Below, one piece after another: positions 47,004 through 64,000 of a stretch of 64,000 nucleotides of DNA. Location of the stretch: assembly GCA_024277815.1 (NCBI GenBank), contig JAJRUM010000040.1:1-64000 (forward strand), given 5' to 3'. The position numbers were made by a program, and so were the translations under genes. This DNA is from Gammaproteobacteria bacterium. Its GTDB lineage: Bacteria > Pseudomonadota > Gammaproteobacteria > Xanthomonadales > SZUA-36. Numbering within the stretch: the stretch's first letter is position 1; every line of letters begins with the position of its first letter. Below the pieces are notes generated by a model. It was given only the letters and a program-made list of their open reading frames with translations. It ran no database searches and had not been told where the DNA came from.

Positions 47004-49151
47004 ATGTTTAAGAAAACAAATATCCTGTTGATGATACTTACGGCGCTGGCCCTGACCAACCAGGCACTGGCACTCGACCCACCACATAACTCGAGCAACT
47101 CAATTGAGTGCGTAACCTGCCACACACTGCACAGTGCGCCTGGTGGCACACTCACTGCAGTAGCAGGGAACGCCAACCTCTGCCAAAGCTGCCATGTTGT
47201 CGGCGGCACAGCAACTGGCAAGCCCTTTGTTGAAGCAGACCAGGCCCGGCCCGGACTGGCGTTACCAGCCGGAATGAGCGCAAGCGGCACGTCCCATCGT
47301 TGGGACGCAGGGCCACAAGGCCGTATCGAAGCAGATGGAGCTAACACATCCGCCGGAACCATCGTCTCCAGCGGCGCCTTCACAGGACCCAACATCCAGA
47401 CGTACACCATTCTGATTACGCTGCCTGGAGACACAGGGGTCGCGGAGTTTGAGTGGTACCTTGAGCTGAAAGGCAGTGGTGCCCCGACAGGACCTGATGG
47501 CACGGGCATCACGGGTACGAGTGTGCCACTCGGGGATGGCCTGGCGCTGAACTTTAGTGATGGCATCACATCGCCGTCATTTGTAGCCGGCGACACCTGG
47601 TACCTGTACGTTATTCCAGACATCGTACTGCCAACAGACCCTGAAATGGCCGTGCGCATGGAGGGTGATGTACTCATGTGTTCAACCTGTCACGACCAGC
47701 ACAGTCAGAAGATGACTCCCTTTGACCCCACTGCCCCTGCATATGCGGGCGCAGGAACCGGCCAGGGACGTCATAACCAGCGCATTGACAATGACCTCGG
47801 GCAGAAGTGCAAAGACTGCCACAGCGCACGTGATGTCAATAGTTCTTCACTGGGTTCACACCCTGTCGGCATTGCCATTCCAGTCAGTGGCGATTTCCAG
47901 AGCCCCACCGGACTGCCACTGGATGCGTCCGGCAATATATCCTGTCTGACTTGCCATGACCCCCATTACAACGGCGCAGACAATGGCCTGCTGCTGCGCA
48001 TCAACGACATTCAAACCCTCTGTACCGAATGTCATACACTGGCCAGTGGTGTAGCCTCCCACTTCAACACCAGCGCTGCTGAAATGTGGCCCGGCGGGCA
48101 ATATGGAAGCAGCTACCCGGCTATCACCGACACGGGCAAAACAGCTTCCTGTGCCAACTGCCATTATCCGCATGGCTGGCCGGACAGTGCCAATCCAACC
48201 ACCGACTCCCCCTTGCTGGCAGTCGATTTTGAAGAGAGCCAATGCTATACCTGTCACGATGGAAATCCTGCTGCCACTGATATCCGTGCGGAGTTCCAGA
48301 AAACTTCGGTACACCCGGTGGCCGCAACCGCAGCCATACACAGCCCGGGCGAAGGCGCCATCGTCAATAGTGGAACACGACACATTGAGTGTGCTGATTG
48401 CCACAACCCTCACGAAGCTGAAGTAAGCGTGGGTGCACCGGGGCCATCCACCTCACCCCGCCCGGCTAACGGCCCGCTGACAGGCACAGCGGGCATCAAC
48501 GCTGCCGGCAGCCCCGTCGCCACGGCCGCCTTTGAATACGAGGTTTGCTTCCGCTGTCATGCTGACAGTACCGGCAAACCCGCAGCACTGACCCAGCGAC
48601 TGTACCCCGAAACCAATGTACGGGTTGAATTCACCAATAAAACCTCATACCACCCCGTCACCAAGACAGGTGCGAACACCGGCAACGGTGACGTGCCAAG
48701 CCTGATAAACGGTTGGGCAGAAAACAGCATTGTGTCCTGTACCAACTGTCACAACAGCGATAATGGCCCGGCCGCTGGCGGCGGCGGACCCAACGGAGCA
48801 CATGGGTCCTCCTGGCCCAACCTGCTTGAACGGCGTTACGTTACCAGTGACCCATCGACGTACAGTGCAGCCAAGTACGCTTCCTGTTTCAGTTGCCACG
48901 ATGCCGCCAACATCCTCAGTGACGATAACAATAGTTTTGGCGAGCACGACAAGCACATCCGGGGTGAGGACGCCGCATGTAATGTCTGCCATGACCCGCA
49001 CGCCTCGGATAACGACAGGCTGATCAATTTTGATACTTCAGTAGTCAGCTCTTCAGGGGGTATGGGCATTAGTTTCAACTGGAACAGCCCCGGCAGTGGT
49101 TCATGTACACTTAGCTGCCACGGCAAGCGCCATAAAAACAAGAGCTATTAG
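47004..49151 (+). CDS. 14-heme cytochrome c (doubled CXXCH class)
   Basis: 715 residues with signal peptide (LALTNQALA|LDPP). Thirteen CXXCH sites (CVTCH, CQSCH, CSTCH, CKDCH, CLTCH, CTECH, CANCH, CYTCH, CADCH, CFRCH, CTNCH, CFSCH, CNVCH) and a final CX3CH in CTLSCHGKRHKNKSY. Most have a second His three residues on (CHDPH-type). Residues ~67-225, between hemes 2 and 3, carry no heme and read as a beta-sandwich (FTGPNIQTYTILITLPGDTG ... AGDTWYLYV). The C-terminal ~250 residues are homologous to the 12-heme cytochrome at 61778-63466. Likely periplasmic or surface electron carrier. Confidence 0.93.
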   Translation: MFKKTNILLMILTALALTNQALALDPPHNSSNSIECVTCHTLHSAPGGTLTAVAGNANLCQSCHVVGGTATGKPFVEADQARPGLALPAGMSASGTSHRWDAGPQGRIEADGANTSAGTIVSSGAFTGPNIQTYTILITLPGDTGVAEFEWYLELKGSGAPTGPDGTGITGTSVPLGDGLALNFSDGITSPSFVAGDTWYLYVIPDIVLPTDPEMAVRMEGDVLMCSTCHDQHSQKMTPFDPTAPAYAGAGTGQGRHNQRIDNDLGQKCKDCHSARDVNSSSLGSHPVGIAIPVSGDFQSPTGLPLDASGNISCLTCHDPHYNGADNGLLLRINDIQTLCTECHTLASGVASHFNTSAAEMWPGGQYGSSYPAITDTGKTASCANCHYPHGWPDSANPTTDSPLLAVDFEESQCYTCHDGNPAATDIRAEFQKTSVHPVAATAAIHSPGEGAIVNSGTRHIECADCHNPHEAEVSVGAPGPSTSPRPANGPLTGTAGINAAGSPVATAAFEYEVCFRCHADSTGKPAALTQRLYPETNVRVEFTNKTSYHPVTKTGANTGNGDVPSLINGWAENSIVSCTNCHNSDNGPAAGGGGPNGAHGSSWPNLLERRYVTSDPSTYSAAKYASCFSCHDAANILSDDNNSFGEHDKHIRGEDAACNVCHDPHASDNDRLINFDTSVVSSSGGMGISFNWNSPGSGSCTLSCHGKRHKNKSY

Positions 49152-49251: not shown

Positions 49252-49923
49252 TTACCCCCTCTGTCTATCCTGTTTCCTTCCTGCTTCCTCGTAACCCGTG
49301 AACATCTCTTTGAAATGTGCAGAGGGCGTATGGCCGAGGGCTCCCATGTAGGCGTGAACCAGGATAAATGAGACAAAGAATATGAATATCAGCACATGGA
49401 TGGTGTCAACGACCCTGATCCCACCCAACAGCGCAATCCAATCTTCAAAGCGCTTGATATCCCACATCATGATGCCGGTCGCAAACTGTGCAGGAATGAC
49501 CAGTAACATCACAATCTGATAGGTAATGCTTTGCATCGGATTGAATTTGTCGTACGGGCGAACCAAGTGCGGGCTGGGCTCGCCTTTAAAAATGCCATAA
49601 CCGTAATAACGTATCTGGCGGAATGCCCGGATGAAGAACCTGCGCGCGTTGAGCTCCGGATGATAGACCTTGATTCTGTCGGAAAACAGGTAAAAACCCA
49701 ACCATATAAAATAGTTGGCAATAACTGAAAACCCAACCCAATTGTGCATTTTGACGGTCATTTCGAATGGGATAACATTCAACAGATCGGCATATCTGAG
49801 TTGCAATCCCGTCAGGATCAAGAGTACAAAGCCCAGCGCGTTGGCCCAGTGCCATATACGTACTGGCAGCGGGTTAATATACAAATCATTTTGCTCTCGC
49901 TGAGCAGCGTAAATTGCTGACAT
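49252..49923 (-). CDS. Cytochrome b561/HydC-type membrane cytochrome b
   Basis: 223 residues with four to five membrane helices. Heme b His candidates in PLPVRIWHWANALGFVLL, MHNWVGFSVIANYF and VVDTIHVLIFIFFVSFILVH, and a C-terminal AYMGALGHTPSAHFKEMFTG, as in cytochrome b subunits of Ni-hydrogenases and formate dehydrogenases. Its start overlaps the stop of the 9-heme cytochrome (TAATG). Together they look like a two-protein version of the CbcL-like fusion encoded divergently. Predicted quinol oxidation and transfer to periplasmic hemes. Confidence 0.9.
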   Translation of the reverse strand: MSAIYAAQREQNDLYINPLPVRIWHWANALGFVLLILTGLQLRYADLLNVIPFEMTVKMHNWVGFSVIANYFIWLGFYLFSDRIKVYHPELNARRFFIRAFRQIRYYGYGIFKGEPSPHLVRPYDKFNPMQSITYQIVMLLVIPAQFATGIMMWDIKRFEDWIALLGGIRVVDTIHVLIFIFFVSFILVHAYMGALGHTPSAHFKEMFTGYEEAGRKQDRQRG

Positions 49924-51269
49924 TACTGGCCTCCCTTACTTTCTTTTTTGCGGATAATTCTACCCATGGTGAAATGCCCGGCAGGTATGGCAAAACCGGC
50001 AAATATGGCTAACAGTAAAAGGATGTCCAGCAGCTTGACGCGTGTTCCACCCAACACATAGAAGTCACTGACAGAACCTACCGAGGCCATTGAACCCAGA
50101 ATTTCCTTGTCCGCCTGATAGTGCAGTGTTCTGCCGTCCGGACGGATGATTGAAATGACTACATCCTCGAATGGCTCAGAGCCGGATTGGTGGCAACTGT
50201 CGCAATTTCTTACAGCCAAACCGCTGCGGGCCAGACGATGAGCCTCTGCACCGGAACTGACCTCCATACGACCGCGCAAGGTAATATTAAGCGCTTTATC
50301 CTGCTGCCCACATTGCCTTACCAGGTTCCAGAGCCGGAGAGGATCTATATTGCCGTCGGCCTGGTCGATAATCTCCAGTTGCTTCTGAAGCACTTCATGG
50401 CCCTGTTTCCCACCCACTGGTAAGCGGGTAATGTTGTCAACCAACTGAAGATCAATTCTGCGTTCGGCAACCGGTGCGTGACAGGCAGCGCAGGAAACCA
50501 CATCAAGATGCAAGCCTGCATTCGGCAGCCAGCGATCATGGGCCAGCTTGACATCCTCATGGCAACCCAGGCACTCAGCCTTCAGATTATCGCCAAATGC
50601 CACCGCTGTAACGTCATGCGCACGATGGCAATTGGCACATACAGGTGCCTGAATATGACCAGCACGGATGACATTGCCATTTTTCCTCGCCTTGCCGTGC
50701 ACACTCGCCGCATAGGCATCGAAAATATCAGCGTGGCAGTTCTTACAGGGCAAGCCGGTCACCGGCTTGTACACAGCCATGCTCTCGACCGCATGCGCGC
50801 TGTGGCAATCCGTACACAGCGGCGCAATCGTGTTGCCCTTGCTGACCAGCGAGGCATGTATGCTGCCCTCATAGCGGGTATATTTCCCTGTGTGGCAATT
50901 TCGGCAACTCTGGTTCAACTGTAATGAATATTCCCGTTGACTGCTGACGGCGATATTGGTTTTTCTTGAGGGGTGTTTTCTGTTGCCAATCGCCTCGTGA
51001 CAGCCAATGCAGGTCACCTCACCGTGGGCGGATGACAAGTAAGCTTGCGGCAGGACTTGAAGTGACATTTGTTCACCGTCATCAAGTGACTTGAATTTCT
51101 CCCGGGAGTGGCACTTCAGACACCGGGTGTTTTTTTTCAACACTGCCCTGAGAACCACCTCACTACTTTCCATGACGTGATTCTCAGCGACGTTTACGGC
51201 TGTGTTGCCATCCAGTGGTACACACGCCAGTAGCATTGCAATCACCAGCTTGTGACGATAGCCTTTCAC
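49923..51269 (-). CDS. 9-heme cytochrome c with C-terminal membrane anchor
   Basis: 448 residues. N-terminal signal peptide (HKLVIAMLLACVPLDGNTA). Nine CXXCH sites: CLKCH, CIGCH, CRNCH, CTDCH, CKNCH, CANCH, CLGCH, CAACH, CDSCH; the last follows a gap of about 100 residues. Then a propeptide-like beta region and a C-terminal helix KLLDILLLLAIFAGFAIPAG with RRK-type positive end (GRIIRKKESK), so the protein is anchored on the periplasmic face. Start overlaps the upstream regulator stop by 4 bp, stop overlaps the cytochrome b start. A NapC/NrfB-like nitrite function is not supported by motifs. Confidence 0.92.
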   Translation of the reverse strand: MKGYRHKLVIAMLLACVPLDGNTAVNVAENHVMESSEVVLRAVLKKNTRCLKCHSREKFKSLDDGEQMSLQVLPQAYLSSAHGEVTCIGCHEAIGNRKHPSRKTNIAVSSQREYSLQLNQSCRNCHTGKYTRYEGSIHASLVSKGNTIAPLCTDCHSAHAVESMAVYKPVTGLPCKNCHADIFDAYAASVHGKARKNGNVIRAGHIQAPVCANCHRAHDVTAVAFGDNLKAECLGCHEDVKLAHDRWLPNAGLHLDVVSCAACHAPVAERRIDLQLVDNITRLPVGGKQGHEVLQKQLEIIDQADGNIDPLRLWNLVRQCGQQDKALNITLRGRMEVSSGAEAHRLARSGLAVRNCDSCHQSGSEPFEDVVISIIRPDGRTLHYQADKEILGSMASVGSVSDFYVLGGTRVKLLDILLLLAIFAGFAIPAGHFTMGRIIRKKESKGGQ

Positions 51270-51859
51270 TCGGGCGTGCTCCTTTGGGTATACGCCTGGT
51301 AACCCAGCCTGGCAAACATGTAGAAGCCAACCAGGGGCAGGGCTATCACATAACCCAGGGCAACAATGGGAGCCGCAAAGAACAGGCCCACATTTTTGGC
51401 AGCAAAGCCGATACCGCCGTCATTGTCAGGCTGTTCTTCAGCTTCGCTATCGGCCTTCTGCATGGCCTCTGCAGCATGTACGATGACGTCGGCTTCATGC
51501 ATGGCCTTGAGCGTGACACTTTCTATGATCTCTGGCGTCAATGGCTTGCGCACAAACCCGCTGACACCCAACACGGATGCTCTGGCCTCATTGTCTGCAG
51601 TGCCGTAACCGGTAATGACAACCACCGGCGTCCATGGGCACCTGGCCTTGATCCGCTCAGCGACCTCAAGGCCGTCCATGCCCGGCATCTTGATATCAGT
51701 GAAAACGACATCAAAATCATTCTCCCTGAGCGTATCCATAGCCTCCTCACCGCTGAGTGCCGTGCTGACTTCATAGCCTTTGCCGGACAGAACCCGGTCA
51801 AAACTACGTCCTACGATTACATCATCATCAATGACCAGTACTTGTGGTTTGGTGTTCAT
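51266..51859 (-). CDS. Response regulator receiver with C-terminal hydrophobic (membrane) tail
   Basis: 197 residues. Receiver domain 1-125: acidic pocket D11-D13, phosphoacceptor Asp55 (VVFTDIKMPGMDG), Thr83 and Lys105 (GFVRKPLTP). After an acidic linker (QKADSEAEEQPDNDG) comes a hydrophobic stretch of about 30 residues (VGLFFAAPIVALGYVIALPL then VGFYMFARLGYQ) and a short polar end. No DNA-binding domain. It overlaps the 9-heme cytochrome gene by 4 bp, suggesting that phosphorylation acts directly on the membrane cytochrome complex (inference). A frame error joining two genes is unlikely since the frame is continuous. Confidence 0.9.
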   Translation of the reverse strand: MNTKPQVLVIDDDVIVGRSFDRVLSGKGYEVSTALSGEEAMDTLRENDFDVVFTDIKMPGMDGLEVAERIKARCPWTPVVVITGYGTADNEARASVLGVSGFVRKPLTPEIIESVTLKAMHEADVIVHAAEAMQKADSEAEEQPDNDGGIGFAAKNVGLFFAAPIVALGYVIALPLVGFYMFARLGYQAYTQRSTPE

Positions 51860-51879
51860 GATTTTCCTCCTGGTTCGGG

Positions 51880-52281
51880 TTAATGGGTAAGGTCGCTGCG
51901 CAATGCCCAGCGCTTCTGGTTAATGGCATCGTTAGCCGCCTTGACTACGTCATCGGGGCCAAGTGGTTTTGTCAGATAAGCAAATGCCCCAAGTCTGACG
52001 GCCTGTTTGGCGGAATCAATACTTGGATAACCTGTAATGACGACAACCTCGCTGGCTGGCCAGCGAATCTTGATGGTTCTGAGAACATCCATGCCATCAA
52101 GTCCCGGCATGCAGAGATCAAGCAAAACGACATCAAACGGATTCTGTTCCATGGCGTCCAGTGCCTGCTTCCCGTCCCGTGCTTCGCTGGCATCACATTG
52201 CGTGCCTGCAAGGCTCCTGAGGTGGCTGTGGCGAACCACTTCTTCATCATCAACGATGAGAATGTTAGCCCTGTCAATCAT
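51880..52281 (-). CDS. Single-domain response regulator
   Basis: 133-residue CheY-like receiver: D11/D12 pocket, Asp55 in VVLLDLCMPGLDG, Thr83 in VVITGYPS, Lys105 in YLTKPLGPDD. No output domain. First gene of the operon behind the sigma-54 promoter; GAGGTGG lies about 4 bases before the ATG. Probably a phosphorelay partner or sink for the membrane-tailed regulator 20 bp downstream and for the heme sensor kinase. Confidence 0.92.
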   Translation of the reverse strand: MIDRANILIVDDEEVVRHSHLRSLAGTQCDASEARDGKQALDAMEQNPFDVVLLDLCMPGLDGMDVLRTIKIRWPASEVVVITGYPSIDSAKQAVRLGAFAYLTKPLGPDDVVKAANDAINQKRWALRSDLTH

Positions 52282-52332: not shown

Positions 52333-52722
52333 GACCCATCCAAAGATGTACCCGCCAGGTTTAGGTTTTTAAATTCAGGGACTTGCATTTTCGGCATGCT
52401 GAAACAGCCTGGTCTTACGCTTTGATATTTTCTCTGAGAAGTACATTTATTCTGTACAGAAACAACACTTAATAATAAGTTATTGTGTATTATCAAGATG
52501 TTATATGGATTTATAGATTGTATAGTTTTTTTATACAGTCCGGTACTTTTACCCCCTGTCAGAATATGCATTAATCATGACCTAGGTCATTGGTACAGTG
52601 GTTCTGGCAGTCTTATATTGCGGGTTGATGTTGATGTTGCACGGGCCCTGATTGTTAGCTCCGTAGCAAGGTGCTGCGGGCCAGGCTTTGACTCATTTAC
52701 GAACCTTAAAAAAGGACCAGGC
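52333..52722. other. Divergent regulatory region of the two quinone-cytochrome operons
   Basis: About 390 bases without a supportable gene; AT-rich in its first half. It contains the FNR-like palindrome at 52577-52590 and must hold the CbcL-like gene's promoter and any upstream sites of the sigma-54 promoter. A frame open from 52483 into the cytochrome gene is not translated as such: the signal peptide and ribosome site place the start at 52723. Confidence 0.5.
52577..52590. promoter_or_regulatory. FNR-like perfect palindrome ATGAC-CTAG-GTCAT
   Basis: Perfect 14-bp palindrome centred about 139 bp before the CbcL-like gene and about 300 bp before the divergent regulator operon. Same WTGAY-N4-RTCAW form as the other four sites. 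Too far from the start codon to place the promoter exactly. Confidence 0.5.
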
Positions 52723-54708
52723 ATGATTCTGGCAAACCGGCTACCAAAAGCACCCCACCCTTTGACCTTGCGTACCCATTTGCTCTTCTTTGCAAAGATT
52801 CTTTCCGTTCTGCTGTTGATAACTGCCAGCCAGGTTCCACTCAGCAGTTCAGCATTTGCCGAGCCGGAAAATCCCAAGCTGCGTAATGAAAAGTGCCTCA
52901 AATGCCATGGTAAGGAGAACTACTCCAGAGAAGGTGCCAACGGTGAGCGACGGCAACTGCATGTCACTGCAGAAGCGTTCAAGGAAAGCGTACACGGTGG
53001 CCGCGATTGCGTTAACTGCCACACAGATATCGTCAAAATACCGCATAAGAAAGGTGTTGACCGCAAGGTTGGTTGTGTCAAGTGCCACCAGGATCTGTGG
53101 AAAGAGGCCCAACTTGAGAGTGGCAATGGCAAGAATGCCCGCCTGGGTGTCGTCGTAAAGCAGATTGAGAGCTACATGCACTCAATACATTCCAGGCCCA
53201 ATATCGATGATCAATCACGCACCAACGCAACCTGCTACAACTGTCACGATGCGCACTACATCACCCCGATAGACAGCATCGCCAACCCTGAAAATCGTTT
53301 AAAGATTCCGTTTGTCTGCGGTGAGTGCCATACAGAAGTACTGGATACCTATTTGACCTCGGTGCACGGCCAGGAAATTGGTAACGGCAATACTGACGCC
53401 GCTGTCTGCAGCGATTGCCACTCAACCCACGGTGTTTCCGACCCGCATGATGCAACCGGCCGGGTGGCAATTACAGAAAATTGTGGTAACTGCCATACAG
53501 ACAACCTTGAAACCTACACCGAAACCTATCATGGCAAAGTCACCAAACTTGGTTATGGAGAAACCGCCAAGTGCTACGACTGCCACGGCTTCCACGGTAT
53601 CAAGCGAGTTGATCAGGAGGACTCCAAGGTACACAACGGCAACCGGCTAGAAACTTGCCGATCCTGCCATGAGAATGCGACTGCAGGCTACGTTACCTTC
53701 CAGCCACACGGCAACACACATGACATCGAGAAGTACCCGGTAATGTGGTTTGCATCCAAGGGTATGATCGCCCTTCTGCTGGGTACTTTTGCCTTCTTCT
53801 GGTTACACTCTGCACTGTGGTTCTACCGTGAATACCAGGACCGCAAGCACGGCAAGGACCGGCCGCATATCATGACTGAAGACCTGCCACAGGGTAAAAC
53901 ACATTTCCGGCGATTCTCTCGCTGGTGGCGGCTCGCACACCTGATTGGCGCACTCTCCATCATGACACTGGCACTGACCGGCCTGACCGTGCTGTTTGCC
54001 CAAAGCTCGTGGGCGCCATTGGTAATGGAACTTCTGGGTGGTCCAAGATCGGCTGCGATTATCCATCGTGTCGGAGCCATCGGGTTTATGGGTGTGTTCT
54101 TTATCCACCTGATCTACTTTGCGATCCACATTGGCAGGAACTGGAGCACATTCCAGTGGTTCGGACCCAACTCGCTGGTCCCCAACTGGGATGACCTTAA
54201 AGACGCCATTGCAATGTTCAAATGGTTCTTCGGCATGGCGCCACGACCGGTACTTGACCACTTCAGCTACTGGGAAAAATTTGATTACTGGGCCCCGTTC
54301 TGGGGTATGACAATCATTGGTGTCAGTGGTGTGATGATGTGGTTCCCGGCTGTGACAGCTTCGTTCCTGCCTGGTTGGGTATTCAATGTCGCTGCCATTG
54401 TGCATGGTGAGGAAGCGATTCTGGCTGTGGTATTCCTGTTCACAGTACATTTCTTTAACAACCACTTCCGACCGGACAAGTTCCCGCTGGACGTCACCAT
54501 GTTCACAGGTAGCGTGCCACTGGAACTCTATATGCATGAGCACCGGCGTGAATATGACCGCCTGCTTGCCAGCGGCGAACTGGACAAGTACCTGGTAGAT
54601 GCACCCTCGCAACCAATGACGCGTGGGTCCAAGATACTGGGCACGACCTTGATTGTCATCGGCCTGACGCTGTTGATGCTGGTCTTGTTAGGGTTCCTGG
54701 GAGTGTAG
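52723..54708 (+). CDS. CbcL-like fusion: 9-heme cytochrome c plus membrane cytochrome b
   Basis: 661 residues from ATG 52723 (MILANRLPKA), with AAAAAGGA 6 bases upstream. Signal region to about residue 46 (SSSAFA|EPENP). Nine CXXCH sites: CLKCH, CVNCH, CVKCH, CYNCH, CGECH, CSDCH, CGNCH, CYDCH, CRSCH. From about residue 340, hydrophobic helices of a HydB/Nqo4-like cytochrome b with His in WWRLAHLIGALSIMTLALTG, AAIIHRVGAIGFMGVFFIHL, AAIVHGEEAILAVVFLFTVH, and a last helix at the end. This 9-heme/b-type layout and length match Geobacter CbcL, an inner-membrane quinol oxidase for low-potential Fe(III) respiration (family knowledge). Confidence 0.9.
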   Translation: MILANRLPKAPHPLTLRTHLLFFAKILSVLLLITASQVPLSSSAFAEPENPKLRNEKCLKCHGKENYSREGANGERRQLHVTAEAFKESVHGGRDCVNCHTDIVKIPHKKGVDRKVGCVKCHQDLWKEAQLESGNGKNARLGVVVKQIESYMHSIHSRPNIDDQSRTNATCYNCHDAHYITPIDSIANPENRLKIPFVCGECHTEVLDTYLTSVHGQEIGNGNTDAAVCSDCHSTHGVSDPHDATGRVAITENCGNCHTDNLETYTETYHGKVTKLGYGETAKCYDCHGFHGIKRVDQEDSKVHNGNRLETCRSCHENATAGYVTFQPHGNTHDIEKYPVMWFASKGMIALLLGTFAFFWLHSALWFYREYQDRKHGKDRPHIMTEDLPQGKTHFRRFSRWWRLAHLIGALSIMTLALTGLTVLFAQSSWAPLVMELLGGPRSAAIIHRVGAIGFMGVFFIHLIYFAIHIGRNWSTFQWFGPNSLVPNWDDLKDAIAMFKWFFGMAPRPVLDHFSYWEKFDYWAPFWGMTIIGVSGVMMWFPAVTASFLPGWVFNVAAIVHGEEAILAVVFLFTVHFFNNHFRPDKFPLDVTMFTGSVPLELYMHEHRREYDRLLASGELDKYLVDAPSQPMTRGSKILGTTLIVIGLTLLMLVLLGFLGV

Positions 54709-54782: not shown

Positions 54783-54815
54783 TAACCAGCGGACTTTGCC
54801 GCTATTGAGGTGTGT

Positions 54816-55922
54816 ATGAAAAATATCCTGTTTGGTATTACGGCCATTGCTTTGTTAGTGGCTTGTTCTGATGAGCCCGGATCGACAGAGTTAGTCGTTG
54901 ATCTCGCCGCTGGCAAAGCGATTGCCGCAGCAGATTGTTCCGACTGCCATGGTATGGACGGCCGGGGAGAGACTTCTGAAATCCCCAATTTGACGGGGCA
55001 ACCTGCTGAGTATCTGATTGACGCCATGCATGCCTACCGCGACGGTGGCAGGCAACATGCGGCGCTGCAGGATATGACTTCCGATATGAGCGAAGCGGAT
55101 ATTGCCAATATTGCCGGCTACTACTCCAGCCTGCCGCCACTGACGCCCCTCAGTGACTCAGTGGCTAACGAAGCGTCCTACAATGAAGGTGCAGCCGTTG
55201 CCGCCATTTGTGAAGAATGCCACGGTGAAAAAGGCATCAGCATGGAAGAAGGGATGCCAAGCCTGGCCGGGCAGCAGCCTATTTACCTGATGATCGCGAC
55301 CCAGGAATATAAAACCGGCGCCCGCGGCCATGAGGGCAGTGAAGACATGCTGGAAGGCCTGGAGCAGGTCGATATAGAGAAGATGGCCATGTACTTCGCC
55401 TCACAGACACCTCCGGTACGCCAGCCACCACCTTTTGGTGACCCTGTTGCCGGTAAGGCAATATCAGCAAGCTGTGGCAAATGTCATGGCGCACATGGCA
55501 TCAGTCACGATCCGATGGTTCCCAGCCTGGCTGGCCAGGAACCCGTATACCTTGTTAATGCAATCAAGGCCTATCGCGAGCATGAGCGTGTGGATGAAGC
55601 TGATATGCCGGCCAAAACCGATGCACAGATTGAGGATCTCGCCGCGTATTACTCAATTCAGAAAATGGAAGCATCGGTTGAAGGTGAGCTGACCGGACAG
55701 GAAATGGCTGCCAAGTGTGATCGCTGCCATAGCCCGGCATCTGGCAGAAGAAAGATGAATGTTCCTTCATTGAAGGGCCAAAGCTTCGAATACCTGGTTA
55801 AATCCATGAAAGAGTACCGGCGTGAAGACCGTGACAATTCGATGATGCATAAAATGAGTTCGCGCTACAGTGATGAAATGATTGAAACCCTGGCCGCTTA
55901 TTACGCCAGCCAGTCAAACTAG
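54816..55922 (+). CDS. Tetraheme class I cytochrome c lipoprotein (four fused c4/c553-like domains)
   Basis: 368 residues from ATG 54816 with TTGAGG upstream (GTG 54810 is less likely). Lipobox ALLVAC near residue 16. Four tandem domains of ~85 residues, each with one heme: CSDCHGMDGRGE, CEECHGEKGIS, CGKCHGAHGIS, CDRCHSPASG. Each has a P-LxGQ element (IPNLTGQPAEYL, MPSLAGQQPIYL, VPSLAGQEPVYL, VPSLKGQSFEYL) and a Met-bearing MT/ML/MP segment for the distal ligand, then a LAxYYAS-type helix. A periplasmic electron wire anchored in the membrane, probably linking the inner-membrane quinol oxidase to the conduit or an oxidase. Confidence 0.9.
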   Translation: MKNILFGITAIALLVACSDEPGSTELVVDLAAGKAIAAADCSDCHGMDGRGETSEIPNLTGQPAEYLIDAMHAYRDGGRQHAALQDMTSDMSEADIANIAGYYSSLPPLTPLSDSVANEASYNEGAAVAAICEECHGEKGISMEEGMPSLAGQQPIYLMIATQEYKTGARGHEGSEDMLEGLEQVDIEKMAMYFASQTPPVRQPPPFGDPVAGKAISASCGKCHGAHGISHDPMVPSLAGQEPVYLVNAIKAYREHERVDEADMPAKTDAQIEDLAAYYSIQKMEASVEGELTGQEMAAKCDRCHSPASGRRKMNVPSLKGQSFEYLVKSMKEYRREDRDNSMMHKMSSRYSDEMIETLAAYYASQSN

Positions 55923-56718: not shown

Positions 56719-56732
56719 TTGATCCAGATCAA
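56719..56732 (+). promoter_or_regulatory. Perfect FNR/ANR box TTGAT-CCAG-ATCAA
   Basis: Exact match to TTGAT-N4-ATCAA. If it acts at -41.5 (class II), transcription starts near 56767 and the -10 hexamer should end near 56760; TTATAT at 56757-56762 fits. The leader to the OmcE-like ATG would be about 70 bases. Confidence 0.78.
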
Positions 56733-56836
56733 TTCACCACTGCTTCAACCATTGTTTTATATCGCCCCGGGACTGATAATACGTGTTGACAAAAGGTTAT
56801 TTCCAAGACAAACCCTCTGAGGAGATGGAGTAAAAG

Positions 56837-57454
56837 ATGAAGACCACGAACTTTTTGAAAGTCACCGTAGCAGCCTCGTTCCTGGTTGCCTCAATCGCGT
56901 CTGCCGGCGTTATTACCGCGTCTAAACATGATTTCAGCGGCAAAGGCTGGAACGGCACCGGAGAAATCTGCGTGGTCTGCCACGCGCCGCATAACAACCT
57001 CAACGCCGCGGGCGAACTGCTCTGGAACCACACTGAGAGTACTGCGACCTACACGGTTTACAGCAGCCCGACCTTCGGCCAGACTGCGGCCAACCCACCT
57101 TCAGGTGCTTCCAAGCTGTGCCTGTCCTGCCATGACGGCACCGTGGCACTGGACTCTTTCGGTGGAGCAACGGGTGGTACGTTTATTGGCGGCGGCGCCC
57201 TGCTTGGCACTGACCTGTCAAATGACCACCCGATTTCGTTCCCTTACACAACAGCGGGCGAAGAACTCAACCCAACAACCGCCACGGTTAATTATGCCGA
57301 TGGCACAACAGGCACGATCGCGGACCTGCTCTTTGGCGCAGACGTGGAATGCTCTTCCTGCCACGATGTGCACAATACCAAGTCCAACGGCGGAAAATTA
57401 CTGCTGGTAGACAACGCAGCCAGTGCGCTCTGCCTGACCTGCCACGCCAAGTAA
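56837..57454 (+). CDS. Tetraheme cytochrome c, OmcE-like
   Basis: 205 residues with signal peptide (VASIASA|GVITAS). Four hemes: CVVCHAPHN, KLCLSCHDGTVALDSF, CSSCHDVH, LCLTCHAK at the very C-terminus, plus isolated His in SKHDFSGKG, LWNHTESTATYTVY and DLSNDHPISFPY that could be distal ligands. Heme number, length, extra His positions and Gly/Thr-rich sequence resemble the extracellular tetraheme filament cytochrome OmcE of Geobacter (comparison from memory). First gene of the conduit cluster, behind the FNR box and ahead of a strong terminator. Could equally be a soluble c3-type carrier. Confidence 0.88.
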   Translation: MKTTNFLKVTVAASFLVASIASAGVITASKHDFSGKGWNGTGEICVVCHAPHNNLNAAGELLWNHTESTATYTVYSSPTFGQTAANPPSGASKLCLSCHDGTVALDSFGGATGGTFIGGGALLGTDLSNDHPISFPYTTAGEELNPTTATVNYADGTTGTIADLLFGADVECSSCHDVHNTKSNGGKLLLVDNAASALCLTCHAK

Positions 57455-57471
57455 ACGGCAACCCTGACGAC

Positions 57472-57510
57472 ACCCCCGCCATCGGCCAGGCCGGTAGCGG
57501 GGGTTTTTTT
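57472..57510 (+). terminator. Strong rho-independent terminator inside the cluster
   Basis: Outer stem ACCCCCGC / GCGGGGGT continues inward (TCGGCC / GGCCGG) to a hairpin of about 15 bp with one mismatch, followed by seven T. It lies directly after the OmcE-like gene and 72 bp before the NHL lipoprotein. No separate promoter is obvious in 57511-57581, so the downstream genes may depend on read-through. Confidence 0.88.
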
Positions 57511-57581
57511 GCACCAGGACGGCTTTTCAGATTGCTATTTGCTATGCTTGAATCCGGACAATTACCTCGGTGACAACCCGT

Positions 57582-58694
57582 ATGAAAACAGACTGCACAC
57601 AGCCCATTCCACGCCTTCCATACCTGGGCAACATTGCCGCCTTGCTCACTGCGCTGGCTATACTCGCCGGCTGCGCAAGCCCCGCAACCAGCGAACCGAC
57701 GGATGCAGTGGCCCAGTTTGTGTTTTACCCGCCCCCACCGGATGAGCCCCGCCTGCAGTACCTGGCGAAATTCTCCACTGCGCTGGATGTCTCTTCCAGT
57801 AGCAAAGGGATGCGCAACCTGGTCTTTGGTGGCGAACAGTTCGAACAACAGGTGATCACCAAGCCCTACGGCCTGGCAATCTTTGAAGGTGCCATTTACG
57901 TCGTTGATGCCCGCGGGGGTGGTTACGCCGTATTTGACCTGGCCAAAGGGCGCACACGGTTCTTTAAGGGCAGCGGTGCGGGTGTCATGACCAAGCCAAT
58001 CAATATCACCATTGATACCGACGGTACCCGCTATGTTACCGACACCCAGCGTGAAGTCATCCTGGTGTTCGACCGGAATGACCGCTACCTGCGCGCACTG
58101 GGCGAGCCGGGTGAATTCCGTCCGGTGGACGTGGCCATCGCCGGCGAACGACTGTACGTGACCGATATCATGCACCAGCAAGTACAGGTGCTCGACAAGG
58201 TAAGCGGCGATATCCTGTTCACATTTGGTGAAGCGGGTGGTAAGGGTGGACAATTGTTCCACCCCACCAACCTCGCCCTCGGGCCGGACGGAACGCTGTA
58301 CGTGACTGACACCAGTAACTTCCGGGTTCAGCACTTTACCGCAGACGGTGAATTTATTCGCGAGATCGGCATGATCGGCCTGAACGCCGGGCAGTTTGCG
58401 CGGCCCAAGGGTATTGCAGTTGACCGGGAAGAGCGGATCTATGTGGTGGACTCGGCTTTTGAGAACGTACAGATCCTTGATTTTGAAGGCAGGCCACTGA
58501 CCTATTTCGGTGCGCCTGGTGAAGAATTGGGAAATATTAACCTGCCGACCGTGGTAAAGATCGACTACGACAACGTGGAGTACTTCCAGAAATATGCCGC
58601 GCCCGGCTTCGAGATCGAATACATCGTGCTGGTCGCCAGTCAATATGGCCCCAACAAGGTGACGGTTTTCGGTTTCGGCACAATGGCAGACTGA
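57582..58694 (+). CDS. NHL-repeat lipoprotein (beta-propeller), conduit cluster
   Basis: 370 residues from ATG 57582 with GGTGA 8 bases upstream (GTG 57570 possible). Lipobox LAILAGC near residue 30. Entry motif FYPPPPDEPRLQYLAKFS, then six or so NHL blades such as KPYGLAIFEGAIYVVDARGG, FHPTNLALGPDGTLYVTDTS and RPKGIAVDREERIYVVDSAF. Paralogous to the lipoprotein at 60747-61781, which has the same PPPPD entry. Predicted periplasmic or surface scaffold around the cytochromes. 13 bp upstream of the beta-barrel gene. Confidence 0.9.
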   Translation: MKTDCTQPIPRLPYLGNIAALLTALAILAGCASPATSEPTDAVAQFVFYPPPPDEPRLQYLAKFSTALDVSSSSKGMRNLVFGGEQFEQQVITKPYGLAIFEGAIYVVDARGGGYAVFDLAKGRTRFFKGSGAGVMTKPINITIDTDGTRYVTDTQREVILVFDRNDRYLRALGEPGEFRPVDVAIAGERLYVTDIMHQQVQVLDKVSGDILFTFGEAGGKGGQLFHPTNLALGPDGTLYVTDTSNFRVQHFTADGEFIREIGMIGLNAGQFARPKGIAVDREERIYVVDSAFENVQILDFEGRPLTYFGAPGEELGNINLPTVVKIDYDNVEYFQKYAAPGFEIEYIVLVASQYGPNKVTVFGFGTMAD

Positions 58695-58707
58695 AAGGCA
58701 AACGGAC

Positions 58708-60744
58708 ATGGGCAGGCAAGACAGGCCGGCGGTCAACTCACGGTGCGACCGCTGCCGCAGAAGCTATGCTGCCCTCCTGCTCCTGCTCGTGCCACTGCTC
58801 ACTATCGCTACCCCGGCAGCCTCACAGGACGACATCAAGGCCTTCGGCATCACTGACATCGGCGGTGAGTTCTCGATACGTTACCGCCTTGACGACTGGA
58901 GTAACTACAACACCGACGGTGATGGTTTTTTCGTCAATAACCCAACCTGGTATGAAGAACTGTCGCTACGCGCTCGCGGTTATGTTTACCACCCCGCTTT
59001 TCTGGACTGGACGATCAGCGGTGGCCCATTGCTGATGCAGTGGGCCTACAAATCAGACGCGGGTGAAGACAGTGGCTCGGATACACTGATGAACTTCGAC
59101 GCCGAACTGAGTTTCCTGAACATGCGGGCCTACCCTTTCACCCTTTACCTGCGCCGTGACCACCCCGAGATCATCAGTAGCATATCCGGCCGTTTCCTGG
59201 TTCAAACCAACGAATACGGCATCAAAGGCATCCTCAGAGAGCCACTTTCCCCCCTGTATATCACCTGGGATGTGAGCCACTGGGATTCCTACGGCTCAGG
59301 TGCGGGGACAACGGTTGATCAGATCCTGAATCGGGCTACCTTGCGAGCCTCACTGCCCTACCGTGAACGGGACAACGTACATTTAATCCTGAACTGGAAT
59401 GAACGGGATTCTAAAAGCGGTGCCATCGGCCTGCCCATACAGCAGTCCCTGATCGAAACTGCCTCAGCGGAACTCACGGGCGACAATACCTTCGGCGACA
59501 GCAGCCAGATGACTTTGCGACATAACCTGATATGGTTGAACCAGAAGACCACGCTGGCGGCGGTTACGGAACTGAAATCGCTGGGATACGTTGGCACTTT
59601 CAACTGGAAGCATACTGAGGCCACCCGCTCATTCGCCAACCTGAACTATAAAGACACCAACCGAACCGAAAGCTGGACCCGGACCGGGGGCTTTCGGGCC
59701 GGAGCCATCCACGACTTCGCCAAAAACCTCACGGTTTCCGGTGAAGGGGACTACACACAGGATGAAGCACCCGGTTTCAGTCAGAACGTAACCGGGGTGC
59801 GGGGCACGGGGAACTACACGCGCTCACTCACGTTCGGTAACCTGGCTGTCGGCGCTTCGGTTGATATGCGACGCACTGACCAGGTGTCAGATACGGACCG
59901 GGTAACCATATTTGACGAGGCCGTTGTACTTGTTGGAACGACACCCGTGACACTGTCCCAGGACTTTGTGATAGTCACAAGCATCGTGGTCACCAACGAG
60001 GCCAAGACCCAGACCTTCATCGAAGACCTGGACTACCGGGTCGTGACGATTGGCAACCGCACCTCTGTCGAGCGGTTGATCACCGGCAATATTGGGCATG
60101 GCCAGAGCGTGCTGGTCACCTATGATGCACTGACTGGCGGCACCGTAAAATACGATACCTTCTCCCAGGGCCTTTCGTTCAACCTGGGCCTGTGGCGATA
60201 TACCAACCTGTTCCTGAATTACAACAACAGCAATAACAAAGTGGTTGAAGGGACCACAACGACTCCACTGAACAGTGTAAATCGTATTGAACTCGGCGCA
60301 CGCCTGGATTACCCGTTCACCAGCGGGTGGATCATGGGTGGTGAGTACCGATTCATCAGGCACGACGAGGATATTTCGCCCAATGTGAACAACAGGTTTG
60401 AAATTTATGCCCAAACGGCACGCTACTGGCGAACAAGCATCCGTCTGCTGGTACACCATGAGACAGTGGAATACGAGCGTTCGCTCGAAGATGTCAACCT
60501 GTACCGTTATTTGCTGACCATCAACAGTATCCTGCCGGGTGGAGTCATACTCGCTTACAACGCAGAATACACAGAGGACACAGGTGGTACTCTGATCCGC
60601 GAGGAAGAACGACACTCACTGTCACTTAACTGGGCATACCGCCAGGTACTTTTCTCATTGCGGGCGAGCAGCTCAGACGTATTGCGGGGAGAAAACAACC
60701 GCCAGAACAAACGGGTTACGGCAATGTTGAGGCGGGTTTTTTAG
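58708..60744 (+). CDS. Outer-membrane beta-barrel protein, candidate conduit porin
   Basis: 678 residues: signal peptide to about residue 39 (ATPAAS|QDD), then alternating amphipathic strands throughout (GGEFSIRYRLDDWSNY; LSLRARGYVYHPAFLDWTIS; NWKHTEATRSFANLNY; YPFTSGWIMGGEYRFIRHDE) and a terminal Phe (MLRRVF), the usual barrel-insertion signal. No CXXCH and no plug or TonB box. Encoded between two NHL lipoproteins and next to multiheme cytochromes, the position a porin has in porin-cytochrome conduits. No sequence similarity to MtrB/PioB was recognised by eye, so the role is inferred from context. Confidence 0.83.
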   Translation: MGRQDRPAVNSRCDRCRRSYAALLLLLVPLLTIATPAASQDDIKAFGITDIGGEFSIRYRLDDWSNYNTDGDGFFVNNPTWYEELSLRARGYVYHPAFLDWTISGGPLLMQWAYKSDAGEDSGSDTLMNFDAELSFLNMRAYPFTLYLRRDHPEIISSISGRFLVQTNEYGIKGILREPLSPLYITWDVSHWDSYGSGAGTTVDQILNRATLRASLPYRERDNVHLILNWNERDSKSGAIGLPIQQSLIETASAELTGDNTFGDSSQMTLRHNLIWLNQKTTLAAVTELKSLGYVGTFNWKHTEATRSFANLNYKDTNRTESWTRTGGFRAGAIHDFAKNLTVSGEGDYTQDEAPGFSQNVTGVRGTGNYTRSLTFGNLAVGASVDMRRTDQVSDTDRVTIFDEAVVLVGTTPVTLSQDFVIVTSIVVTNEAKTQTFIEDLDYRVVTIGNRTSVERLITGNIGHGQSVLVTYDALTGGTVKYDTFSQGLSFNLGLWRYTNLFLNYNNSNNKVVEGTTTTPLNSVNRIELGARLDYPFTSGWIMGGEYRFIRHDEDISPNVNNRFEIYAQTARYWRTSIRLLVHHETVEYERSLEDVNLYRYLLTINSILPGGVILAYNAEYTEDTGGTLIREEERHSLSLNWAYRQVLFSLRASSSDVLRGENNRQNKRVTAMLRRVF

Positions 60745-60746
60745 AC

Positions 60747-61781
60747 ATGCAGGCCCGGCTACTCCGCTACGTGGGACTTACGGCACTGAGCCTGATGGCT
60801 TACAGTTGCACCACGCCACCGACCGAAAAGCCGTTGACGGGTACAGCACCGGCCTGGCCGCCACCACCGGATGCTGCCCGCATCCAGTTTGTCAGGGAAT
60901 TCAGCGGCCCGGCGGATCTTGGTATCCGGCCATCGCTATGGAACCGTATCAAAGCCATAGCGACTGGTCAGGACCAACACGACATGGAACGACCAATGGC
61001 CGTGGCCGCCACAGATGATGGTCAATTGATTTACGTGGCTGATCCCGGCGCACAGTGTATTCACCGCTTCGACCTCCAGCGGGGACGCTACCGCTGCCTG
61101 ATTACAGAACAGGGAGATGTACTGCTATCACCGGTGGGGGTGGCGATCAGTACTGAAGGCAAGCTGTATGTAACCGATTCAGGTCTGAACATGGTGTTTA
61201 CAGCCACACCAGATGACAACGCATTGCAACCACTGACGCTGACACCACCACCCGACCAGCCAACGGGCCTGGCCGTCGGACCGACGGGGGACCTGTTCGT
61301 TACCAGCACGGGCAGCCACAGTGTGCGACATTATTCGGCTGACGGCCGCCTGATCCAGGAGTTCGGCGGGCGCGGCAGTGCACTTGGCCAGATGAACTAC
61401 CCCACCTACCTGTGGCTCAGCTCTGCGACAGAACTGCTGGTCACGGACACCATGAATTTCCGTATTCAGCGCATTGATCCCAACGGCGGCGTGCTGAGTG
61501 TATTTGGTACGGCGGGCGATGGTACCGGCAGTTTTGCGCGGCCCAAGGGCGTGTCTATGGACCAGGCCGGAAACATATATATCGTTGACGGTATGCACCA
61601 CGCCATACAAATCTTCAACCGGGCCGGCCGCCTGTTACTGGCGATTGGTAGCCAGGGGAGTGCGCCAGGTGAATTCTGGCTACCCAGTGGTATTTTTGTG
61701 ACTCAAGACAACCTTATCTTCGTCGCCGATGCCTATAATAGCCGTGTGCAAGTATTTCGGTATACAGGAGAAAGTTCTTGA
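60747..61781 (+). CDS. NHL-repeat lipoprotein (second paralogue), conduit cluster
   Basis: 344 residues, starting 2 bp after the barrel gene. Lipobox-like LMAYSC near residue 21. PPPPDAARIQFVREFSGPAD repeats the entry of the first NHL lipoprotein; blades such as RPMAVAATDDGQLIYVADPG, SPVGVAISTEGKLYVTDSGL and RPKGVSMDQAGNIYIVDGMH follow, to VFVADAYNSRVQVFRY at the end. The two propellers flank the barrel gene and may form its periplasmic and outer caps. The stop overlaps the TTG of the 12-heme cytochrome. Confidence 0.9.
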   Translation: MQARLLRYVGLTALSLMAYSCTTPPTEKPLTGTAPAWPPPPDAARIQFVREFSGPADLGIRPSLWNRIKAIATGQDQHDMERPMAVAATDDGQLIYVADPGAQCIHRFDLQRGRYRCLITEQGDVLLSPVGVAISTEGKLYVTDSGLNMVFTATPDDNALQPLTLTPPPDQPTGLAVGPTGDLFVTSTGSHSVRHYSADGRLIQEFGGRGSALGQMNYPTYLWLSSATELLVTDTMNFRIQRIDPNGGVLSVFGTAGDGTGSFARPKGVSMDQAGNIYIVDGMHHAIQIFNRAGRLLLAIGSQGSAPGEFWLPSGIFVTQDNLIFVADAYNSRVQVFRYTGESS

Positions 61782-63466
61782 AGCTGTCAGGCATATTGGT
61801 CGTCGTTACCACTTGGTTCCTGTTCGCCACACCAGCAAGCGCAGCGAGTGTCGTTAACTCGGTTCACAATCTTTCTCCCACCGGACCAGGCACTGTGCGT
61901 GCTGCAGAGGACAGTGGCGTGTGTGAATTTTGCCATACATCACACATGTCCTCACCCGTTGCGGCCCTGTGGAACCGCCGCAGCGCAGGCAGCACCTACA
62001 TGCCCTACTCCAGCAGCACCGCCAAAGCCAGCCCCGGTCAACCCACTGGCTCATCGCTGTTATGCCTGAGTTGCCATGACGGCACCGTCGCCCTGGGTGA
62101 CGTACTCAGCCGGGCCGCACCCATTTCCATGGCCGGTGGTGTCACCACCATGCCGCCGGGCCGCTCAAACACGACGACAGACCTGCGCCATCACCACCCG
62201 ATATCGTTTATCTATGACTCCGGCCTTGCCGGTCTTCAGGGTGAACTCGCCCTGCCCGCAAACCTTCCACCCGAGATCCGCATGGACTCTACCGGGCAGA
62301 TGCAGTGTACAAGCTGTCACGACCCCCATGATGACAGTTTCGGGGACTTTCTCGTGATGCCCAACCAGAGCTCCAGCTTATGCCTGGAATGCCATCTCAA
62401 AGATGGCTGGCCCACTACTCCGCACAGCCAGTCCGGCGCTACCTGGAATGGCCAGCTACCCGACCCCTGGCCTGTGGCCCAGGATCAAACCGTGGCCACT
62501 AACGCCTGCCGGAACTGCCATGAAAATCATCAGACCGGTGGCGGCCCGAATCTCCTGCGTAACGCTTCAAGGATTGATAACTGTGCAGCCTGTCACAACG
62601 GCAATGTAGCCAGTCAGGACGTGATGGCGAGCTTTGGGAAAATCTCCACACATCCAGTCGCGAGTACTGCGGATATCCACGACCCGGTCGAGAGTGCTGT
62701 AGTTATCGATCGTCACGTGGCCTGCTCGGATTGCCACAACCCGCACAAACCAACACCTGACCAACCCGGTGGTGGCGTACGACCGGCACCACAAGTACGC
62801 GGCGTTGACCTGAACAACACTGAGCAAAGCCCCGCAACGCGGGTCTACCAGGTATGCTTGCGATGCCATGGCGACAGCCCCGGGAAGAAAACGCCACTGG
62901 TACGCCGACAGCTGGACCAGGATAATGTCAGGGCAGAGATTCAGCCCGGTAACCCCTCCTTTCACCCTGTCGCCGGACCCGGCCAGAACACCGACGTACC
63001 GAGCCTGATCCCACCCTGGAATGAACAGTCAATAATGGATTGTGTGGATTGCCATAATTCGGACTCTGCGGTGACTCAGGGTGGAGTCAAGGGTCCTCAC
63101 GGCTCCTCTTTCGAACCAATCCTGGTAAGGAACTACGAAACAACTGACTTTACGCGGGAAAGCCCGAACAGTTACGCGCTGTGTTACAACTGCCACAACC
63201 GCAACAGCATTCTCAATGACGACAGTTTTGGTGAGCATGATAAACATATCAGCGGTGAAGATTCACCGTGTAGCGCTTGCCATGACCCACACGGGATCAG
63301 TGCGACTCAGGGTAATACCACGAACAACACACACCTGATTAATTTCGATACAACCATTGTGAAGCCAAACAGTATGGGCAATCTTCGCTTTGTTGACCAG
63401 GGCCGCTTCAAAGGCTCCTGTGACCTGCTATGCCACGGCAAAAACCACAGAAACAAGAGCTACTGA
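61778..63466 (+). CDS. 12-heme cytochrome c with OmcE-like N-terminal part
   Basis: 562 residues; TTG start (GGAG 8 bases upstream) overlapping the preceding stop. Signal peptide (FATPASA|ASVVNS). Hemes: CEFCH, CLSCH, CTSCH, CLECH, CRNCH, CAACH, CSDCH, CLRCH, CVDCH, CYNCH, CSACH, and a last CX3CH in CDLLCHGKNHRNKSY. Residues ~25-205 (VHNLSPTGPG ... ALWNRRSAGSTYMPYSSST ... LLCLSCHDGTVALGDV ... HHHPISFIY ... CLECH) repeat the OmcE-like four-heme layout of the gene at 56837. The C-terminal part is homologous to the 14-heme cytochrome at 47004. Likely the main electron carrier of the conduit. Confidence 0.93.
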   Translation: MKLSGILVVVTTWFLFATPASAASVVNSVHNLSPTGPGTVRAAEDSGVCEFCHTSHMSSPVAALWNRRSAGSTYMPYSSSTAKASPGQPTGSSLLCLSCHDGTVALGDVLSRAAPISMAGGVTTMPPGRSNTTTDLRHHHPISFIYDSGLAGLQGELALPANLPPEIRMDSTGQMQCTSCHDPHDDSFGDFLVMPNQSSSLCLECHLKDGWPTTPHSQSGATWNGQLPDPWPVAQDQTVATNACRNCHENHQTGGGPNLLRNASRIDNCAACHNGNVASQDVMASFGKISTHPVASTADIHDPVESAVVIDRHVACSDCHNPHKPTPDQPGGGVRPAPQVRGVDLNNTEQSPATRVYQVCLRCHGDSPGKKTPLVRRQLDQDNVRAEIQPGNPSFHPVAGPGQNTDVPSLIPPWNEQSIMDCVDCHNSDSAVTQGGVKGPHGSSFEPILVRNYETTDFTRESPNSYALCYNCHNRNSILNDDSFGEHDKHISGEDSPCSACHDPHGISATQGNTTNNTHLINFDTTIVKPNSMGNLRFVDQGRFKGSCDLLCHGKNHRNKSY

Positions 63467-64000
63467 TGAACCTGAAACATATTTTCTTTATTCCACAGGG
63501 AGCGGCGTCTTTTGCCGCAGTCACCATTCTCATCTCGGTCATGGTGATAGCGCCTGCCGTATCTGAAGCAGCCAGAGCATCCAGCCCTCACTGGCGTAAA
63601 GGCAGTTGTGATACCTGCCACCAGGCTGCTCAACCAGTAACCGGGCAGGCTGCACTCAAAGCCTCCCCGGCCCAGGCTGTTTGTAACGATTGTCATGGCA
63701 AAAAAGGCTTTTCTGTCTGTCGGCACCGGTCAGATATCACACTGCAGACCGGGGGTGCGGTGGAAGTTGGTGAGTCACTACAGCCAGGGCTGGATGACGG
63801 TAAAGTAGTCTGCACCACCTGCCATGACATGGCGCCACACTGCGCACTTGACATAAAGCAACGATATAGTAACAAGAGCTTCCTGCGTGAAGGGCCATTC
63901 GACAGCCGCAGCCAACAGTGTTTCGGCTGCCACAGCAAATCGGGTTACAAGCAACGTTCACCGCACCGCCAGGTCAGCAAAGGAAAAATCAAGGAAGGCA
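63466..64000 (+). CDS. Multiheme cytochrome c, 5' part (cut by window end)
   Basis: ATG 63466 overlaps the previous stop (TGATG). 178 codons are visible. Signal peptide (LISVMVIAPAVSEAA|RASS), then hemes CDTCH, CNDCH, CTTCH, CFGCH so far. The block YSNKSFLREGPFDSRSQQ followed by CFGCHSKSGYKQRSPH resembles multiheme proteins with one CXXCH per repeat and a distal His in the next. The frame is still open at base 64000. Final gene visible of the conduit operon. Confidence 0.88.
   Translation, partial: MNLKHIFFIPQGAASFAAVTILISVMVIAPAVSEAARASSPHWRKGSCDTCHQAAQPVTGQAALKASPAQAVCNDCHGKKGFSVCRHRSDITLQTGGAVEVGESLQPGLDDGKVVCTTCHDMAPHCALDIKQRYSNKSFLREGPFDSRSQQCFGCHSKSGYKQRSPHRQVSKGKIKEG

Follow-up and report, generated by a model that had tools for sequence, protein, structure and literature searches.

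The window analyzed here, bases 1–64000 of a contig totaling 69991 bases, ends inside a cluster of multiheme cytochrome genes. The neighborhood from 45 to 70 kb holds many genes for multiheme cytochromes and for cytochrome b. The genes that matter for this work are listed below, the last three lying beyond the window end.

52483..54708, + strand: nonaheme cytochrome fused to a cytochrome b561-type membrane domain (9 CXXCH; Ni_hydr_CYTB 2.2e-4; Cytochrome_C7)
54810..55922, + strand: four-domain monoheme-type cytochrome c (Pfam Cytochrom_C 4.9e-25; 4 CXXCH)
56837..57454, + strand: tetraheme c-type cytochrome in the UetA position (4 CXXCH; OmcE homolog)
57570..58694, + strand: NHL1, a beta-propeller lipoprotein (Pfam NHL 2.3e-16; lipobox LAGC at 32-35)
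58708..60744, + strand: outer-membrane beta-barrel, 678 aa with signal sequence (AlphaFold2 model)
60747..61781, + strand: NHL2, a beta-propeller lipoprotein in the UetI position, directly 5' of the 12-heme gene (Pfam NHL 3.6e-31)
61778..63466, + strand: 12-heme cytochrome, UetJ homolog, 562 aa (11 CXXCH and 1 CXXXCH)
63466..64000 in the window, ending at 64380 on the contig, + strand: octaheme cytochrome C6 with signal peptide (8 CXXCH, counted on the contig)
about 64370-65320 on the contig: NHL3, a third NHL protein
65317-66336 on the contig: second octaheme cytochrome
66464-67216 on the contig: conserved exported protein, 250 aa

A preliminary description had started the locus at 56719, ahead of the first gene, and had claimed six genes from the tetraheme onward. 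All six are present in the claimed order and strand, as judged by ORF calls and heme-motif counts. The 12 hemes attributed to the fifth gene are accounted for by 11 CXXCH motifs plus one CDLLCH, and the sixth, described as a further multiheme, is an octaheme once completed on the contig. The tetraheme and NHL1 genes are separated by 115 bp. From NHL1 onward the spacing is +13, +2, −4, about −1, about −11, and −4 bp, computed with the best-fitting starts (C6 at 63466, NHL3 at 64370). The first four of these values bear out the 2-13 bp gaps or overlaps noted earlier. Because the spacing is this tight from NHL1 onward, the genes are read as a single operon, which is longer than six genes and extends past the window end.

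The tetraheme is a full-length homolog of OmcE. Its profile matches PDB 7tfs (OmcE) with an E-value of 3.6e-49, profile positions 1-206 aligning with chain positions 1-232, and the heme motifs align. PDB 9yuq is matched at 2.2e-43, and the single sequence by itself gives 7e-20. OmcE likeness extends to the 12-heme protein, in its N-terminal third (match to 7tfs, E 2.1e-43). Of the two propellers flanking the barrel, NHL1 has a clear lipobox, and this protein is kept in both of the related locus types described below (B and C). The NHL2 lipobox is poorer (AYSC); those of its relatives are good, and NHL2 is found at the same place in nearly all of them.

The island holds further modules of this kind. 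A 13-heme cytochrome (47004-49151) is a paralog of the 12-heme protein, matching across model positions 141-606 (E 5.7e-86), and its gene lies directly 3' of an NHL-propeller gene (45571-46995), a second NHL/multiheme pair that has no barrel. At 49252-51269, on the minus strand, a cytochrome b561-type gene adjoins a 9-heme cytochrome gene. Two response regulators (51266-52281) adjoin this pair, and together they are likely a regulated, quinone-linked electron module.

Neither Pfam nor NCBIfam has a match for the barrel, and the barrels of two relatives also lack a Pfam match. The earlier remark that it was not recognized as MtrB/PioB stands: membership of that family by sequence was rejected, with no gene of the genome passing the MtrB_PioB cut-off and the best PF11854 match, 14.8 bits, falling at a different locus. 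An AlphaFold2 model built from 15 homologs reached pLDDT 84.8 and pTM 0.71, while a model from 7 sequences only was poor (pLDDT 69.8). The better model has about 28 long strands and a small inserted domain at about residues 414-475. Its top PDB match is MtrB (6r2q_B, Foldseek E 1.5e-9). VIA-align gives Z 17.6 against 6r2q_B (459 aligned, rmsd 8.5) and Z 16.9 against HasR, a tie that sets MtrB apart from TonB-dependent receptors by less than one Z unit. Structure prediction, proposed at the outset as a check on the conduit idea, was carried out for the barrel; it returned a large barrel with MtrB as its best match, in this tie, and not the ordinary transporter without room for a cytochrome that would have spoken against the idea. 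The size and fold of the model suit the holding of a cytochrome, short of proving it. Against UetC-type barrels, hhalign finds a weak relation (96%, E 4.5e-9, 15% identity over about half).

UetC belongs to a published system that shares most of this layout. Uet comprises a tetraheme (UetA), a PPIase (UetB), a barrel (UetC), trihemes (UetD/E/G), NHL proteins (UetH/I), and an undecaheme (UetJ), and is found in Tenderiales and Gallionella (PMC10734462). The cluster has been named uetABCDEFGHIJ (PMC12575090), and Leptothrix, too, is reported to have UetJ (PMC13386937). Among the Tenderia triheme genes is a TPR gene, Tel_16525 (PMC5371394), which by position corresponds to UetF. We found the canonical order A-B-C-D-E-F-G-H-I-J in four loci (L072, L074, L077, and L078), recognized by the published gene order. 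In L072 the PPIase is confirmed by Pfam and the TPR Pfam hit is weak.

The window cluster resembles Uet in its OmcE-like tetraheme, large barrel, two NHL proteins, and 11/12-heme cytochrome directly 3' of an NHL gene. The 12-heme protein aligns with the UetJ-type proteins of the canonical-order loci over 525 columns (hhalign 100%, E 1.8e-76, 33% identity). The tetraheme matches UetA-position proteins (L072, 2e-21), and NHL2, one of three NHL proteins present alongside NHL1 and NHL3, matches the NHL gene 5' of J (L072, 5e-54). Unlike Uet, the window cluster lacks genes for a PPIase, a TPR protein, and trihemes. An 11-row triheme profile found no triheme gene anywhere in its own genome, which is 93.8% complete; the genome's PPIase matches are distant (20-29% identity) and at other loci; and no TPR (UetF) ORF occurs between 56837 and 67216. 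The cluster also adds octaheme C6, NHL3, and the second octaheme, its UetJ homolog is 562 aa whereas canonical UetJ is about 800-910 aa, and its barrel is related only marginally, with a J protein in a separate clade. Since the PPIase, TPR, and trihemes are missing, the cluster falls outside Uet in the strict sense and is a sister variant. It is a variant of the Uet kind, not a new category. Related to Uet, it most likely functions in a similar way.

This changes what can be said of novelty. The preliminary description had raised the prospect of an undescribed extracellular electron transfer system, and in that strong sense the idea fails, as the signature of tetraheme, barrel, two NHL proteins, and 11/12-heme cytochrome is that of published Uet (PMC10734462, PMC12575090). 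The claim of a new composition holds for one part. The core matches Uet, but a form with octahemes and a third NHL protein in place of trihemes, PPIase, and TPR was not found described. For the triheme-less form with C6, no description turned up in a literature search that did not extend to Eddie et al. 2022, the defining Uet paper, or to the Ca. Dechloromonas occultata paper.

We then looked at how widely the arrangement occurs. Among 200 genomes of the order, relatives of the barrel were found in five others, all of the same family and 23-31% identical over parts. A draw with the barrel profile across the phylum, taking in 398 genomes, gave hits in the window genome only. At class level, the 12-heme profile picked up full-length relatives in other families. 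The resulting loci fall mainly into two types besides canonical Uet.

Type B, the type of the window's own family, has the order NHL1, tetraheme, triheme, triheme, barrel, NHL2, 11-CXXCH cytochrome, in some cases followed by a conserved exported protein. It was found in L008-L012, from that family, and in L059 and L064. Type B shares with the window NHL1, the tetraheme, the barrel, NHL2, and a UetJ homolog (about 600 aa with 11 CXXCH in type B), and usually the same exported protein (230-250 aa) 3' of the cluster. Unlike the window, it has two triheme genes between tetraheme and barrel and no C6, and its barrels are about 16-18% identical to the window's. In a Rubrivivax MAG (L013), a pentaheme lipoprotein occupies the triheme place. 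The exported protein, 230-270 aa and without any Pfam match, is linked to clusters in the window contig (66464-67216; L002 3465-4217), L008, L009, L011, L013, and L059. After three type-B clusters come a 460-485 aa NHL protein and secreted repeat proteins of very large size (L009 1-2473, L011 3-4141, and L012 6338-11862). Two of the latter carry 4-13 heme motifs, reach up to 1379 aa, and are possible giant surface cytochromes.

Type C has the order tetraheme, NHL1, barrel, NHL2, 12-heme, octaheme C6, and was found in L060, L061, L062, and L067. The window is type C: its 12-heme protein is 56% identical to that of L061, and its barrel is up to 37% identical to those of the type. Type-C loci have 6-7-heme and cytochrome b genes within, after, or near the cluster, and three (L060, L061, and L067) also have NHL3 and a C8 relative, with 18-24 hemes where complete. 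L063 is type-C-like, with an NHL2 not separable from the 12-heme frame; in L065 the cluster has no adjacent C6, and undetermined bases break up L066. C6 adjoins the 12-heme gene in L060, L061, L062, L063, L066, and L067. The full six-gene order is kept in families f133, f105, f137, and f75, and type-C loci in f78, f56, and f46 are incomplete or slightly different, so that the variant occurs in no fewer than seven families besides the window's own. The search for this gene order in other genomes, which the preliminary description had proposed as a check, therefore came out in its favor. An arrangement recurring across unrelated families is far beyond chance. Two further loci, L068 (G409) and L069 (G509), have an NHL / tetraheme / 613-aa ORF / NHL / 11-12-heme cluster, sit on a deep J-tree branch of their own, and may represent a fourth type.

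In the J-protein tree, canonical Uet loci form one clade (100/99), with type B and type C as separate sets at 97/92 each. The C8-type proteins with 18-24 hemes, which had entered the tree through their heme motifs, form a far branch and were rejected as UetJ. The window falls in type C and its congeners in type B. Grouping the window barrel with the barrels of its own family was rejected (AU p 5.6e-5), and the type-C barrel occurs in 1 of the 200 genomes of the order sample, the window genome. Because the congeners carry the triheme-containing type B, the window copy was probably acquired horizontally; horizontal gain, or a replacement, is the simplest reading of the type-C copy.

Taken together, the cluster is likely a Uet-related porin-cytochrome conduit across the outer membrane. 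The logic of such a conduit, which had been recognized from the start, fits the make-up of the operon. From gene content, homology, conserved order, and the barrel fold of the model, we infer a complex with a cytochrome seated in the barrel, and with it the localization of the parts, a filament, and a direction of flow. The inner-membrane quinone end of the chain would be the nonaheme/cytochrome b protein (52483-54708), which is the probable candidate and has a CbcL-like architecture, or the 9-heme and cytochrome b pair (49252-51269). Genes related to the nonaheme fusion, coding for a 6-7-heme cytochrome and a cytochrome b, are found inside or next to the cluster in type-C relatives and could serve this end. 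A periplasmic carrier would come next, for which the four-domain cytochrome c (54810..55922) is a possible candidate. Octaheme C6 may then enter or dock on the barrel, taking the role of the Uet trihemes. Outside, electrons would be carried by the UetJ homolog with its 12 hemes and by the OmcE-like tetraheme, which may form a filament. The pair of lipoprotein propellers may anchor or orient the cytochromes, holding the surface partners.

C6 is the likeliest protein for the barrel because trihemes (type B and Uet), a pentaheme (L013), and C6 (type C) interchange beside a constant barrel/NHL/12-heme core. Its gene lies 3' of the 12-heme gene, not 5' of the barrel. Descent of C6 from the Uet trihemes was considered and rejected, as hhalign matches just 37 columns around two heme motifs (71%). 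With similarity limited to heme motifs, any replacement would be one of role, not by descent. As to direction, the genome encodes RuBisCO, COX1, and heme-copper oxidases, and electron uptake coupled to carbon fixation is plausible. Uptake is slightly favored, since Uet hosts oxidize cathodes or iron and the window host has RuBisCO and oxidases.

Other functions for the same genes were also considered. The barrel and propellers could be a secretion or assembly station that exports and nucleates an OmcE-type filament, built of the tetraheme and the OmcE-like 12-heme protein, with no conduction through the barrel. Both cytochromes have the OmcE homology this would call for, the barrel also matches usher and transporter barrels, and canonical Uet includes a folding-type factor, the PPIase. 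However, the window variant lacks that PPIase, MtrB matches the barrel better than any usher does, and non-OmcE cytochromes (octahemes, trihemes, pentaheme) are co-encoded nearly always. We consider such a station unlikely.

It is very improbable that the genes form a respiratory reductase cluster, whether periplasmic or extracellular, that serves a soluble acceptor, with the barrel as an ordinary transporter for a substrate or of the siderophore type. In Pfam the barrel matches neither a plug-domain family nor a TonB-dependent receptor, and the operon lacks a catalytic subunit; the genes linked to the barrel encode a nanowire-type cytochrome, propeller lipoproteins, and a homolog of UetJ. These points weigh against the structural match of the barrel, less than one Z unit from TonB-dependent receptors, and the fact that octaheme cytochromes include reductases. 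A bolder version of the conduit reading makes type C a distinct conduit class. Here the octaheme in the barrel would replace the Uet triheme pair and the propellers would couple the conduit to an OmcE-type filament from the same operon, a self-contained filament-plus-base unit spread by horizontal transfer. We hold this version to be possible but doubtful.

Read as a Uet-related conduit, the cluster and its relatives bear on the way in which OmcE/OmcS-type cytochrome filaments connect to the outer membrane. The large barrel and two surface-type propellers stay together with homologs of OmcE and UetJ, and the periplasmic cytochromes are swapped (trihemes, pentaheme, or octaheme). This swap points to the part that may plug the barrel, and leaves a small gene set on which the coupling of filament to conduit might be studied. 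The whole would amount to a conserved outer-membrane electron conduit, and screening for electron uptake can be widened to genomes beyond the Mtr, Cyc2, and canonical Uet markers.

Other known systems share parts of this design. In Desulfovibrio ferrophilus, multiheme cytochromes are encoded with NHL propeller proteins (DFE_0448-0451 and DFE_0461-0465), in a genome with no apparent porin-cytochrome conduit (PMC9769857). As described, these clusters resemble the window in the pairing of NHL propellers with multihemes. The Geobacter OmcE filament is matched by the window tetraheme, a full-length homolog with four heme sites; OmcE is defined as a filament, a form that the window protein may share. 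Compared with MtrCAB, MtoAB, and PioAB, the window lacks an MtrB_PioB sequence match and a decaheme MtrA-family protein, the best of the scanned cluster proteins, the 12-heme protein, scoring 53.7 bits against the decaheme MtrA/DmsE family (TIGR03508, cut-off 192.2 bits), and it has NHL lipoproteins. What it shares with them is a big outer-membrane barrel encoded with multiheme cytochromes, a barrel whose best structural match is MtrB, tied with HasR.
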